Virus record (IMG/VR): IMGVR_UViG_3300030329_000040
Span: 1 to 20,074 of that record
Reading direction: 5' to 3' (one strand)
DNA length: 20,074 bases
From: a virus
Below, in pieces: positions 2,398 through 14,600 of the stretch (the stretch's first letter is position 1; each line of letters begins with the position of its first letter). The notes under the pieces are model-generated. The model did not search any database. It had not been told where the DNA came from and worked only from the letters and a program-made list of their open reading frames with translations. The position numbers were made by a program, and so were the translations under genes.

Positions 2398-3117
2398 ATG
2401 GATCGAGTCCAGATGGAAACTGGCGTGACAGGACCAGACGCACCAACACCAGAAGAACCACAAGCAGAAAGACCTGAGTGGTTACCTGAAAAGTTTAATA
2501 GTGCTGAAGATTTAGCTACTGCTTATTCTGAATTAGAATCAAAGATGGGACAACAACCAGAAGCAGAAGCACAACCAGAAGAAGTTGTAGAAGAAACCAA
2601 CGAAGAATCTACAGGTTTATTTGGTGAAAACGATGTTGAAAAGTACAACGCTGAGTTTAGCGAAACTGGTACGTTGTCTGATGAAACAGTAAAAAACATA
2701 GTAGACAAAGGTTTACCAGAAGAATTTGTTAGAACTTATGTCGATGGTTTAAAAGCACTCGCAAGCCAAGCCGAGGCATCGGTGTATAACACCGTAGGTG
2801 GCGAAGAGTCTTACAACAACATGATGGAATGGGCTACTGAAAATCTTTCAGATGCAGAGATAGAAGCCTATAACAATACAATTGCTGAGTCATCAAACGA
2901 TGCACGACTTTTAGCAGTTCAAGGGTTGCATGCAAGGTTCACTCAAAGTGAAGGCACATCGCCTAGTTTGTTTAAAGGTAAAGCTACAGGTACGGCTACA
3001 AATGCTTTTGGTTCTTGGCAACAAGTATCAGAAGCGATGAGGAATCCTAAATACACTAAAGATCCTGCGTACCGTAAGGAAATCCAACAACGTCTTTCTA
3101 TTTCTAATCTTTCTTAA
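2398..3117 (+). CDS. capsid assembly scaffolding protein (T7 gp9-like)
   Basis: Scaffold proteins direct prohead assembly and then leave. This 239-aa protein is strongly acidic, with a PEPQAERPEWLPEKF opening and the SAEDLATAYSELESKMG block (about residues 36-52) that is typical of podovirus scaffolds. A Glu/Gln-rich stretch follows (about 53-72). The C-terminal half is helical and ends in a basic segment (NPKYTKDPAYRKEIQQRL) that would contact the coat protein. SD: AAAGGAG about 8 nt before the ATG. T7 gp9 is about 307 aa, so this is a shorter member. The call rests on position between portal and capsid, composition, and the AEDLAxAYxELE motif. Confidence 0.9.
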   Translation: MDRVQMETGVTGPDAPTPEEPQAERPEWLPEKFNSAEDLATAYSELESKMGQQPEAEAQPEEVVEETNEESTGLFGENDVEKYNAEFSETGTLSDETVKNIVDKGLPEEFVRTYVDGLKALASQAEASVYNTVGGEESYNNMMEWATENLSDAEIEAYNNTIAESSNDARLLAVQGLHARFTQSEGTSPSLFKGKATGTATNAFGSWQQVSEAMRNPKYTKDPAYRKEIQQRLSISNLS

Positions 3118-3128
3118 AGGAGATCGTA

Positions 3129-3365
3129 ATGTCTAAACCAGGATATAAATCCACAGAATTTTGGTTATCTAGTAGCGCAATGCTCGGAGGAATTTTAATG
3201 GCTTCTGGAGTGTTCCCTATTGAAAGTAGCCTTGGGCAAATTTTAGGTATGATTATGAGTACCTTAGCTGCTCTAGGATACACAGGTAGCCGAGCTTCTG
3301 TAAAGAAGAAACAAGCTGAAGAAGAAGCTAAGTGGGAAACTGACGAAACTGCAAGTGCAGAATAA
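3129..3365 (+). CDS. two-TM small membrane protein, holin-like
   Basis: This 78-aa protein has a strong SD (AAAGGAG, 7 nt upstream). It begins with a short polar N-terminus (MSKPGYKSTEFW) and has two hydrophobic segments (about residues 12-28 and 35-52, separated by PIESSLG). After TGSRASVKKK it ends in a charged tail. This size and two-helix topology match class II holins and a family of small marine-phage membrane proteins of the form YKSTEFW…LAALGYTGSRA. The role is inferred from topology; no holin signature was tested. It lies between scaffold and capsid, unlike T7, where the holin (17.5) follows the tail fibre. Its TAA overlaps the next ATG (TAATG). Confidence 0.55.
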   Translation: MSKPGYKSTEFWLSSSAMLGGILMASGVFPIESSLGQILGMIMSTLAALGYTGSRASVKKKQAEEEAKWETDETASAE

Positions 3366-3541
3366 TGTCGTTTCTTATTAGTTTAATTACTTCAGTTATA
3401 CACAAAATATTACCTACACTTTTGGAGAAAGCGAATGAACCGACTATTGGTAAAGATGCCCCTCCTCCTCCTAAGCGGATTCGCTCTGCTTGGACTAACA
3501 GGGTGCGGAAGTTCAAGAGTCGTATTCGTCCCCGAAAGTGA
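3365..3541 (+). CDS. 58-aa basic protein, overlapping the lipoprotein gene
   Basis: This short ORF starts at the TAATG junction with the previous gene and runs 58 codons to TGA at 3539-3541. It overlaps the first 107 nt of the lipoprotein gene in another frame. The protein has a hydrophobic, possibly membrane-associated N-terminus (MSFLISLITSVIHKILPTLL), a short linker (EKANEPTIGKD), then APPPPKR and a very basic tail (TNRVRKFKSRIRPRK). The composition is not random-looking, and the start is positioned as expected for translational coupling, so I take it as real. I do not recognise a named family. The membrane/Pro/basic layout beside a holin-like gene and a lipoprotein suggests an envelope or lysis role, but it is too short for a classical Rz i-spanin. 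Confidence 0.6.
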   Translation: MSFLISLITSVIHKILPTLLEKANEPTIGKDAPPPPKRIRSAWTNRVRKFKSRIRPRK

Positions 3542-3791: not shown

Positions 3792-4759
3792 ATGTCAAAT
3801 ATGACTGAATCTCGTTTGGGGCTTAAAAGAGGTGGTTCTGATAACTTTGAACTTTTTCTGAAAACATTCTCAGGAGAGGTACTTGCAGCGTTTGAAGAAC
3901 GAAACGTTATGATGCCCTTACACAATGTGCGGACTATCCAAAGTGGTAAGTCTGCTCAGTTTCCTTTAATAAGCACGGCAAGTGCTGGTTATCATGCTCC
4001 TGGTGATGAAATTCTTGGCACAGCTATAGATCATTCCGAAAGAGTTATTAGCATTGATAACCTATTAGTTGCTTCAGCATTCATTGCTAATATAGATGAA
4101 GCCATGAACCATTTCGATGTTCGTGCTACATATTCGAGAGAATTAGGGTACGCTCTAGCTAATCATGCTGATAAAGCAATTATTCGTGCAGGTCTTGCAG
4201 GTGCTTTAGATGCTACTGATCCGCTTAATAAAACAGGCGGTGTTAACTTAGCTACAGGTGGTACTGGATCAGGTGTTATTGATAAGATTCTAGAAGCTGC
4301 ACAGCACATGGATGAACAAAGCATTCCACAAGGAGATCGTTATTGCGTTCTTCTTCCAAGTTTGTTCTACAAAGTGTTACAATCAGCAGGATCTTCTAAT
4401 AGTGCTGGTGCTGTTCTAAACCGTGACTTTGGTAACGGTGGATCGTTCCAACAAGGTGGAAGTCAAATTCTAACCGTTGGTGGTGTTCAAGTTATGATGA
4501 GTAACCACATTCCAACAACTAACGAAGATGATGACGGCGGCGGAACAGTTGATACTACTCTTGGATCTACGTCAGTACGAAACGCTCCATTTAACGATGC
4601 AGAGGTTTCAGGTGCAGATGCCAATGAAGGCTACTCAGGTATGAACTTTACTAATTACGAAGGTCTTGTATTCCATAGATCAGGTATTGGTACAGTTAAA
4701 CTGCTTGACCTTGCAATTGAATCTGATTACTTGGTACAAAACCAAGGTACTTTGATGGT
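3792..4759 (+). CDS. major capsid protein (T7 gp10-like), exon 1
   Basis: The major coat protein has the HK97-type fold and builds the icosahedral shell. Exon 1 encodes residues 1-322 plus two bases of codon 323. The SD is AGAGG about 7 nt before the ATG. T7-like capsid features are LFLKTFSGEVLAAFEE (about 21-36), SGKSAQFPLIS (54-64), YHAPGDEI (70-77), ERVISIDNLLVASAFIANIDEAMNHFDVR (about 86-114) and VLLPSLFYKVL. Read without splicing, the ORF continues six codons beyond codon 323 (NYCLAA) into the intron and stops at TAG 4779-4781, giving 329 aa without the usual C-terminus. Joining 4759 to 5009 gives 344 aa ending as T7-like capsids do. The 5' exon ends in U, as required for the G·U pair at a group I 5' splice site. 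Confidence 0.93.
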
Positions 4760-5008
4760 AAACTACTGCCTCGCTGCTTAGTAATAAGCAAGCGTTAATC
4801 CTGTGAATTGCTGGAAACTCTCTATGAGACAATCAGCAGCCAAGCCCTTCGGGGAAGGTTCAACGACTATTCCGTAAGGAAGTAGACTCGAAGCCGAGTC
4901 GAAGTGCAGGAATCCCTATATGGGATATGATATAGTCTGAACTGTTAGGTGACTAACAGCAGCCGTAAATCGGCGGTTCTTAACTAGCGATTAAGAGCGA
5001 ACATAATG
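4760..5008 (+). ncRNA. group I intron (IA2-like), ORF-less, in the capsid gene
   Basis: A full group I ribozyme can be folded by eye. P1: 4757-4760 with 4767-4770 (exon GGU with intron GCC, U4759·G4768). P2: 4772-4780/4785-4794, GUAA loop, one bulge. P3: 4799-4805/4905-4911. P4: 4809-4813/4834-4838. P5: 4819-4822/4826-4829. P6: 4839-4841/4857-4859, with P6a 4845-4847/4852-4854 capped by UUCG. P7: 4865-4869/4933-4937. P7.1: 4870-4873/4878-4881, GUAA loop. P7.2: 4885-4890/4895-4900. P8: 4913-4916/4922-4925. P9: 4942-4948/4953-4959, GUGA loop. P9.1: 4962-4965/4971-4974. P9.2: 4978-4983/4991-4996. The conserved R (GGUUCAACGACUA) and S (GAUAUAGUCUGAAC) strings are intact. The intron ends ACAUAAUG with omega-G at 5008, and exon AG 5009-5010 can make a short P10 with CU 4766-4767. 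P7.1/P7.2 place it with T4 td-type introns. At 249 nt there is no room for a homing endonuclease. Confidence 0.94.
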
Positions 5009-5075
5009 AGCAAAGTATGCAATGGGTCACAATTACCTACGTCCAGCAGCTTGTGTAGGACTAAAAACCTCATAA
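5009..5075 (+). CDS. major capsid protein, exon 2 (C-terminal 21 residues)
   Basis: This 67-nt exon supplies the last base of codon 323 (GT|A, Val) and then AKYAMGHNYLRPAACVGLKTS followed by TAA at 5073-5075. The KYAMGH…LRP pattern is the normal C-terminal strand of T7-like capsid proteins, and it appears in no ORF that starts with its own SD. That is the strongest evidence that the upstream segment is removed by splicing rather than being an ordinary intergenic region. The frame closes exactly: 968 + 67 = 1035 nt, 344 codons plus stop. An isolated ATG at 5022 exists but has no SD. Confidence 0.9.
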
Positions 5076-5099
5076 GTTTGTTGACGACAATACAATGGG

Positions 5100-5131
5100 C
5101 TACTCCTCGACAGGGGAGTGGTTCCTATTTT
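5100..5131 (+). terminator. stem-loop terminator downstream of capsid gene
   Basis: A 9-bp stem (5100-5108 with 5113-5121, two G·U pairs, GACA loop) is followed by UUCCUAUUUU. It lies between the capsid stop and the tail tube A start, the place where T7 has its late terminator T-phi after gene 10. The U-tract is interrupted, so termination is probably partial. That would give more capsid mRNA than downstream tail mRNA. It is followed directly by the AGGAG (5132-5136) of the next gene. Confidence 0.5.
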
Positions 5132-5142
5132 AGGAGATATAT

Positions 5143-5748
5143 ATGTTAGGAACTACAAGTAAACTAAACGCTGTAAACACAATGCTTAGTGCTGTAGGGG
5201 AAGCCCCTATAAATTCACTAACGTCAAACGTAACAGCCGATGTTTCACTTGCTACTTCTATACTTGATGAAATCTCCAGAGAAGTCCAATCTCATGGTTG
5301 GCATTTTAATACTGTTATAGATTATCCATTAATACCAGATAGCACTACAAACATTAACTTACCTACAAACATGGTAAGGGTAGACTTAGAGGGACTTAAC
5401 TTAGACCCTGACTTTGATATTGTAGTTCGTGGTACTAAACTGTATAACAGAGTAAACAATTCGTATGTCTTTACACAAACTCTTAAAGTAACTGCTGTTG
5501 TTTTACTAGAGTGGGACGAGATGCCTGAAGTAGCTAAAAGATACATTATGATTCGTGCTGCTAGGGTGTACCAGGATAGACTTTTAGGTTCTGGTAAACT
5601 GCATGATTTCAATAGAGTCAACGAGCAACAAGCATTTATGGCACTTAGAGAATACGAAATGGATACAGCCGATCACAATATCTTTGAAAACGATGATGTC
5701 TTTAGGATTATCAATAGAGGTAATATTATTAATAGAGTGAGGACCTAA
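5143..5748 (+). CDS. tail tubular protein A (T7 gp11-like)
   Basis: This protein forms the ring that joins the portal to the tail nozzle. It is 201 aa, against 196 in T7. The N-terminal block LNAVNTMLSAVGEAPINSL (about residues 8-26) is the hallmark of the family. It is followed by ILDEISREVQSHGWHFN (about 41-57), a beta-rich middle (residues 60-125) and the C-terminal helix AKRYIMIRAARVYQDRLLGS (about 131-150). SD: AGGAG, 6 nt from the ATG. The TAA overlaps the tail tube B start (TAATG), so the two nozzle proteins are translationally coupled. Confidence 0.94.
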   Translation: MLGTTSKLNAVNTMLSAVGEAPINSLTSNVTADVSLATSILDEISREVQSHGWHFNTVIDYPLIPDSTTNINLPTNMVRVDLEGLNLDPDFDIVVRGTKLYNRVNNSYVFTQTLKVTAVVLLEWDEMPEVAKRYIMIRAARVYQDRLLGSGKLHDFNRVNEQQAFMALREYEMDTADHNIFENDDVFRIINRGNIINRVRT

Positions 5749-11659: not shown

Positions 11660-14600
11660 ATGGTTACTTACCGAGAAATTCTCGAAGAAGAAAATAAAAA
11701 TATTGGCGAAGATCAACAAACAGTTTTTCAGACTGTAAATGAAGAAGAAGAAAATTCTTTCTTTGACTCTGTTGTAGATGTGGGTTTGTCTCCTGTACGA
11801 GGTATAGCAGGGGCTGTTGAAAGTGCTGCCGAAATAGGAAATATCTTTGGGCTTGATTATGATATCCCTGAGAACTTAGGTCTTGGCGGTTCGGAAACTA
11901 TGGTTGGTGGTGCTGTTGAAGGTATTACTCAGTTTGCTACAGGGTTTATTCCTGGGATTGGTCTTGTTAGTAAGGCAGGTAAGTTTACTAAAATAGGTGG
12001 AGCTACTGGTAAAGTTGCAAAAGCAGTCGCTAAAGCTACCGATCAAAATAGAAAGAAGACAGCATTAGCCATCACTAGAGGATCTGAAGCTATTAAATAT
12101 GCAGCAGCAGGAGCAGTAGCAGACTTTACTGTATTTGACGGGCATGAAGCTAGGCTTTCTAATTTAGTAAACGAACAGTTCCCTGACTTAGCAAACCCTT
12201 TGACAGAATACTTAGCAGCCGATGAAGACGATACAGAAATAGAAGGTAGATTTAAAGCAGCTATTGAAGGTCTTGGTTTAGGACTTGCTTTAGATGGAAT
12301 CTTTTTATTAGCTAAAGGTATCAAAGCAGGTCGTAAAGCAGGAGGCGTAGATGCTGATGGTAATGTTATTAATAAAGATAAAGCTACAAAAAAACTTGAA
12401 GAAGTAACAGACGAAGCTCCTACACCTAAAGAAGAACCTGATGCTACACCTAAAGATGAACCCGATGCTAAACCTAAAGAAGAACCTGAAGTTGAACGCA
12501 CTTTAGAAGATGAGCTAAAAGACTTTAGGGCAATAATGAAAGAAAAAGGCGTTGAAAAAATTAAAGAAATAAGGAACAAAGCCTTAAATTGGAAAAATGT
12601 TTCTTCTAATGCACAAGTTAGCGATGCTATACGCATAGCTACCGCAGCTAATAAAGTATTACAAGAAGCAACTGAAAAAGGTACAGGTCTTACAAATGAC
12701 GTTTTAACACAAAACAGTAAACAAATTAGATCAGACATAGCTGATAGCACAGGTGTTGTCATAGGAACAGATGAAGAAATTGAATCTTTATTAGGAGCAA
12801 GTAAAAAAGTCCCAGATAACGTAAAAGAAGCAATTTCAGTCGTAGGGGCTTTAAGAGATGTGTTAGAAGAAAGAGGTCAATTACTTTTAGATACTACTAC
12901 ACAAGTAGTAAAAAATCCTACTGAAATATCTCGACAACAAATAGGAGAATTTCTTTTAGCTAACATACAAGTCAATCAAATAACAGAAGTAGTACAAGAG
13001 GTTTCTGGACTTTTTGGATCAGCTTTACGATCTTTAAAATTAAAACCAGGACGTTTTGGTAGAGAATTCGAAGGAGTTACTTCTCAATCTTTAAGAGATA
13101 ATCCAAAATTACTTGATGAAATGATAGCTAAAGCAGGCGGAGAAGCTGCTGTTAGAGAACAAATGCAACGAATGGCGTTGTCACAGAATTGGAAACAAGC
13201 CACAAAAAGTGTTCAAAAAGAAGCAACCGCATTAGGAGCTATTACTGAATACTGGATGAACTCTATTCTTTCTGGTCCTATTACCAACGTAGTTAACTTT
13301 ACGTCAGCAGCTTTAACTACTCTAATGGCTCCTGCTGAAAAAGCGTTGGGGTATGCGTTTACTGGAGATATGGGTAAAGCAGCTTCAGAACTCGCTAGAT
13401 ACAAACTTATGTATACTGAAGTAGAACATGCTTTAGCATTTGCGAAATTAGCTATAAAAGAAAATGAAGCTATTTTAGATCCTTTATTACGAACAGTAGA
13501 AACTTCAGGATCTAAATCAAAGATTACTGATTATTTAGTAAACAAAGGACTTAAAGAAGGAACTATGGGTAACTTAGCTGCTCAATGGTTAGGAACGATT
13601 GCTAACTTACCTTCACGAGCATTGCTAGGCGGTGATGAGTTTTTCAAACAAGTTAATTATAGAAGCATGATGAAACATCAATTAATGGAACAAGTAGTTA
13701 AAGAAGGTCATACTAATCCTAGAATTATTAATAATTTAGTAGATCAAAGGTTTGATAAACTTGTTAAAAAAGGAAACCAAACTGCAAGAAAACAAATAGC
13801 ACAACAAGCTAGAAACATAAAAGAGTTTGAAGGGCGATCTGCTAGTTATAGGACAAAGTTTGTAGATCCTATAACAGGACAAGAAGTTAAAAAAGCAATG
13901 ACAAAATCTGAGTACATAAATTCACGACTTAAACAATATTCATTAATGAATGAAAAAGCATTAGGAACTGCTCAAAAAGTTACCTTTACAGAACCTTTAA
14001 CAAAAGATCGTGGTGCATTTATAGGAATGAGTAGTGATTTATCTACTTTTGTAAATAGAAACCCTGCTGCTCGTTTAGTTCTACCTTTTATGAGAACTCC
14101 TGCAAACATCATTCAACACTTCTTTGATCGTGTTCCTTTATTAGGTACAAGCCAAAGAAAAGCTATGCGTGATTTAGGAAAAGAATTAAACCATGCGGAT
14201 GCTGAAATTAGAGCCGATGCTATTGGAAGGTTGGCTACAGGATCTATATTTACAGTTGTAGGGCTAACAGCCGTGTCTTCTGGGACTATTACAGGTGGTG
14301 GACCAACTGATAAAGCTAGAAGAAAAGCAATGGAAGACGCAGGGTGGCAACCTTATTCCGTTAAGATTGGGAATGCTTATGTGTCTTACCGAAGGTTAGA
14401 TCCTGCTGCTATGACTATAGGTATGCTTGCGGATCTTGGTACTATTTTCTTAGAAGGTGATGAGGAAATTAGGAAAACCGCAGGAGACTATATTTCTGCT
14501 GTAACTGTGTCTATGGCTCGTAATCTTACAAGTAAAACATACTTAACAGGTGTTACAAAATTTACAAACGCTTTGTCTGATCCTGAAGGATTTGGTAGTG

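Follow-up and report, generated by a model that had tools for sequence, protein, structure and literature searches.

A predicted self-excising group I intron in the capsid gene of a T7-like marine phage, and group I introns at other sites of the same gene

Where is the C-terminus of a phage coat protein encoded when the reading frame of its gene closes too early? The question is raised by a 20,074-base virus record from a metagenome (IMGVR_UViG_3300030329_000040; the whole stretch is called the window here and its numbering is used throughout), in which the frame of the major capsid protein (MCP) gene, 3792-4781, ends in ...LMVNYCLAA if nothing is removed from the message. In tblastn comparisons of the MCP with its relatives, most matches stop at or near residue 323, and the KY..GH..LR-type C-terminus is encoded in the window only at 5009-5075. 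A preliminary description of this DNA had placed a group I intron between the two parts, and our analyses agree with it, its boundaries being exact to the base. We consider it highly probable that a 249-nt group I intron without an endonuclease lies in MCP codon 323 and would excise itself, restoring the conserved C-terminus (Table 1).

Splice boundaries and empty sites

In all 78 IMG/VR relatives that were long enough to judge, the capsid frame runs directly into KY..GH..LR-type sequence, and alignment with these empty sites places the junction at T4759|A4760 ... G5008|A5009, which gives TTGATGGT|AGCAAAGTATG across 4759/5009. The boundary taken from sequence alone leaves a one-base shift possible, and the above placement was chosen because it is the one that satisfies both the U.G rule and the omega-G rule for group I introns. 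Codon 323 would thus be split as GT (4758-4759) plus A (5009) and completed by the 67-nt exon with the missing C-terminus, and on this point, too, the empty sites bear out the preliminary description. The spliced MCP would comprise 344 aa with the conserved AKYAMGH C-terminus regained, and it aligns with solved T7-type capsid chains up to residue 340-341; the exon 2-type C-terminus of 21 residues is conserved across all relatives.

The closest intronless alleles, labelled L001 and L003, share 88-90% DNA identity with the window over exon 1 and 96-99% over the 390 nt that follow the site, the 249 nt being absent from both. A pattern search for a G two bases upstream of an AKYAMGH-type exon found three more capsid introns at the same site, one identical to that of the window (L084, on the same contig as L002) and two about 82% identical to it (L086 and L087). 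Three other sequences (L082, L083 and L085) matched the omega-G pattern but gave no group I match; in L082, the capsid gene is intronless and has a TGT codon, and L083 resembles a chance match. The 3' gene end of L084 (AAAGAATCTTAA) differs from that of the window and is common to the intronless L003, and the 3' gene end of the window is common to the intronless L001, so that the presence of the intron is not tied to the sequence some 60 nt further downstream. Differences in exon 2 between the window and L087 are mainly synonymous. In the 437 nt that lead up to the site, L016 and L087 are identical, but L016 carries no intron at that site. Judged from these comparisons, the intron comes and goes between near-identical alleles.

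Exon positions +1 and +4 are both A (AGCAAAG) in all intron-bearing alleles, and in none of 38 distinct empty sites. These marker bases may reflect either co-conversion of the exon with the intron, as in homing, or retention for P10 pairing (A5009-U4767 and A5012-U4764).

Table 1. Coordinates of the split MCP gene and of the elements of the intron in the window
Feature	Position	Strand	Evidence
MCP exon 1 (codons 1-322 plus GT of codon 323)	3792-4759	+	Gp10A-like PF21703, E=2.9e-48
In-frame stop of the unspliced message, product end ...MVNYCLAA	4779-4781	+	
Group I intron, 249 nt, no homing endonuclease open reading frame	4760-5008	+	RF00028, empty sites, covariation
P1: 5' exon UGA[U]GGU (4753-4759) with internal guide sequence GCCUCG (4768-4773)	4753-4773	+	Hairpin fold
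P2 (GCU.GCUU / AAGC.AGC)	4773-4793	+	Pair check, covariation
P3 (4799-4803 with 4907-4911), pseudoknotted with P7	4799-4911	+	3 of 5 pairs compensated
P4 (4808-4813 with 4834-4839), P5 (4819-4822 with 4826-4829)	4808-4839	+	P4: 3 compensated pairs
P6/P6a, UUCG loop	4840-4858	+	Pair check, covariation
P7 (4865-4869 with 4933-4937)	4865-4937	+	1 compensated pair (U-A to C-G in L016)
P7.1 (4870-4881, GUAA loop), P7.2 (4885-4900), IA-type insertion	4870-4900	+	5 compensated pairs
P8	4912-4926	+	2 compensated pairs
P9 (4942-4959, GUGA loop), P9.1 (4962-4974), P9.2 (4978-4996)	4942-4996	+	8 compensated pairs
Omega-G, final intron base	5008	+	Empty-site alignment; likewise G in L084, L086, L087
MCP exon 2, 67 nt, ends TAA, AKYAMGHNYLRPAACVGLKTS* once codon 323 is completed	5009-5075	+	Contiguous in 78 intronless relatives

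Intron structure and alternative readings

When the whole window was compared with Rfam, the sole RNA found was the group I intron family RF00028 (4739-4959, plus strand, full model 1-253), at 87.6 bits against a cut-off of 50 (E=1.7e-21). The helices from P2 to P9.2 were positioned by hand and then verified pair by pair, and every paired element named beforehand was found (P2, P3, P4, P5, P6/P6a, P7, P7.1, P7.2, P8, P9, P9.1 and P9.2), together with the UUCG loop of P6a and the omega-G (G5008). The three GNRA loops that had been announced are GUAA in P7.1, GUGA in P9 and GUAA in P2, the last only with its A-U closing pair included. P7.1 and P7.2 both lie between P7 and P3, as in IA2 introns, an architecture that fits subgroup IA. 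No open reading frame longer than 25 aa lies wholly within the intron and none resembles an endonuclease.

Covariation was examined over 64 pairs in an alignment of the window intron with the diverged same-site introns L086 and L087 and with an intron of L016 at another site, which amounts effectively to three independent sequences because L086 and L087 differ by one base. Two-sided changes occur in 25 of the 64 pairs, a number reached by none of 500 shuffles, and 97.7% of the alignment cells pair, compared with at most 43% when the structures are slid by 1-3 columns. P3 and P7 pair fully in all four sequences. The folding z-score of the intron is -3.65, although the pseudoknot-free fold misses P3 and P7 together and is uninformative on the core. 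The Rfam match, the folding z-score and the compensatory pairs exclude a chance origin of the structure.

By established group I chemistry, self-excision of such an intron from the message uses a guanosine cofactor. For the capsid message, we surmise that the transcript would fold into the P3-P9 core, with the wobble pair U4759.G4768 in P1 setting the 5' splice site; the guanosine cofactor would drive the cut there, and U4759 would then be joined to A5009 after the omega-G, restoring the C-terminal 21 residues of the coat protein. The coat gene is usually expressed at a very high level. We infer that the intron is spliced in the cell, and efficient splicing would be expected of a phage that has to make much coat protein and whose relatives all conserve the 21 exon 2 residues. 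Between alleles the intron may have spread by recombination or homing, and its movement without an endonuclease of its own could involve an endonuclease acting in trans, general recombination in co-infection, or reverse splicing.

Several observations weigh against this reading. P1 contains a bulged U, and the Rfam alignment draws its 5' strand further upstream (4743-4751) than the P1 used here. P10 is weak at only 2-3 pairs (A5009-U4767, G5010-C4766 and A5012-U4764) with a C.A mismatch, and the sequence comes from an uncultured 20-kb metagenome fragment. The upstream P1 bears on a rival reading in which the 5' splice falls at another GGU, for instance after 4748, and exon 2 is joined in another frame: AGGU at 4745-4748 can pair with GCCU, and the shifted frame is open to 5149. 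Such a splice would, however, cost the protein its conserved residues TLMV and put the conserved AKYAMGH exon out of frame, while GGTACTTTGATGGT is intact in the empty alleles, which place the 5' splice at 4759|4760; moreover, L003 and L084 carry a 10-nt insertion in the capsid stop region, and the shifted frame is therefore not kept. We regard this reading as extremely improbable.

Somewhat less remote, but still very unlikely, is a degenerate or poorly spliced intron whose unspliced message yields a truncated capsid (329 aa, ending in NYCLAA) as a functional second form, in the manner of 10A and 10B of T7. An in-frame stop does lie 7 codons inside the intron, and cases of incomplete or alternative splicing are known from phages (PMC11878797). 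Against this, the core helices are all intact and compensated, and the 78 intronless relatives yield no such short capsid form. A self-excising intron with its boundaries at 4759|4760 and 5008|5009 remains the reading that we favor.

A T7-style -1 frameshift extension of the 10B kind was rejected as well, as the 10-nt insertion in L003 and L084 shifts the phase and the extension is not conserved. The -1 frame over exon 2 is open for 47 codons (5006-5149) and is not kept in those two alleles. Between the capsid and tail tube genes, a terminator-like hairpin (5097-5124), conserved in L001, L003 and L084, is placed comparably to the late terminator of T7.

The window otherwise has the T7-like gene order of portal, scaffold, MCP, tail tube, nozzle, internal virion proteins and tail fibre (Pfam families PF12236, PF05396, PF21703, PF17212, PF24072 and PF03906). 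The portal, scaffold, Gp10A, tail tube, nozzle, gp14 and T7 tail fibre place the phage with the T7-like Autographiviridae, in line with the preliminary description. A tRNA scan of the window found none. A 239-aa open frame on the minus strand (12043-12762), antisense to the large internal virion protein gene, is probably due to chance.

Introns at other sites of the capsid gene

Including that of the window, seven intron sites were found in the capsid genes of marine phages, with at most two introns per gene, while the majority of sampled capsid genes are intronless. L016 carries a related group I intron (3085-3338; 72-73% identical) at KTFSG|EVL. Two unannotated group I introns lie in Chosvirus KM23C739 (KT997847, 2320-2500 and 3029-3209), after HYDVK.. 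and after ESEYD, and the contig L150 has two at the same sites (3320-3500 and 4021-4196). The KT997847 record lists two 'capsid protein' genes and misses the C-terminal exon, and the word "intron" is absent from the paper that we take to describe it (PMC4981710). Two further introns of L131 are located at LFLKV|FSGEV (427-601) and after ALGHG (1432-1607); the single intron of L153 (70-244), also at LFLKV|FSGEV, is identical to that of L131 over 184 nt, despite the fact that the two capsid proteins differ. Finally, the cultured Pelagibacter phage HTVC120P (MH598807, 1367-1549 of the sequence labelled L177) has a capsid intron after KSATFPV, which at 48.6 bits (E=1.5e-11) lies just below the Rfam cut-off and was detected by an E-value search; it shares 89% identity with the Chosvirus intron over 154 nt, and here again the record splits the gene into two annotated capsid proteins. 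The splice points of the Chosvirus-type introns are ambiguous by at least 2 nt, and the sites in this last group are therefore good only to a few bases. Judged by match length, no insertion was seen in 80 relatives from the HTVC120P capsid scan.

Introns at different capsid sites are often mutual best matches in this sample. The first introns of L150 and L131, located at different sites, are 83% identical, the first Chosvirus intron and the last of L131 are 82.5% identical, and among annotated phages the best match of the first Chosvirus intron outside its own record is the HTVC120P capsid intron. Spread within the gene is nevertheless a lead rather than a result, because the window intron is also close (80% identical over 141 nt) to an intron of Vibrio phage D181. 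We give about even chances to the broader proposal that small group I introns lacking an endonuclease have repeatedly invaded the T7-like MCP gene of marine phages, at no fewer than seven sites and with up to two per gene, and that introns at different sites are often each other's closest known relatives; this would suggest movement from site to site in the gene, through reverse splicing or ectopic recombination, and not classical endonuclease homing. In addition, a 735-kb uncultured phage (LR756501, 190377-190452) has an intron core that matches the Chosvirus capsid intron at 93% identity over 76 nt.

Relation to known phage introns and significance

The intron of the window belongs to an already known kind, the group I introns, and its location in a coat gene had been described beforehand as unusual. 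That word needs tempering, since capsid introns are known from LittleE and Tuc2009 and the capsid gene of marine T7-like phages is recurrently invaded. In the open-access literature we found no report of pelagiphage or T7-like capsid introns. In mycobacteriophage LittleE (Cluster J), the major capsid gene also carries an intron, with splicing shown by RT-PCR; the exon ends in U and the intron in G, as here, but the LittleE intron measures about 820 nt, contains an endonuclease open reading frame, is only probably group I and resides in a Mycobacterium siphovirus, in contrast to the 249-nt, well-defined and endonuclease-free group I intron of a T7-like marine phage described here; Tuc2009 carries a capsid-gene intron, too, and mycobacteriophage BAKA a tail-gene intron lacking a homing endonuclease gene (PMC3706429). 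T7-like phages already have a known group I intron in their DNA polymerase genes (Bonocora & Shub 2004, as cited in PMC8351571), where a replication enzyme and not the coat protein is affected. The introns of KT997847 and HTVC120P share the T7-like MCP gene and the lack of an endonuclease, and differ in insertion site and in belonging to a shorter intron subfamily. Ribozyme cores about 75-80% identical over 110-140 nt occur in Vibrio phage D181, Roseobacter phage CRP-7 (ribonucleotide reductase), Acinetobacter phage nACB1 (DNA polymerase, with an HNH open reading frame) and DSS3_VP1 (terminase), although these introns sit in other host genes and several contain an open reading frame.

Split capsid genes are mis-annotated in public records, whereby a common marker gene is truncated. 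As HTVC120P is in culture, the efficiency of coat-gene splicing can be tested. A phage-intron study of 2025 asks why introns colonise only genes of nucleotide and DNA metabolism, and proposes that they act as switches or as weapons against such genes (PMC11878797); the coat-gene introns of marine T7-like phages are a counter-example to this pattern.
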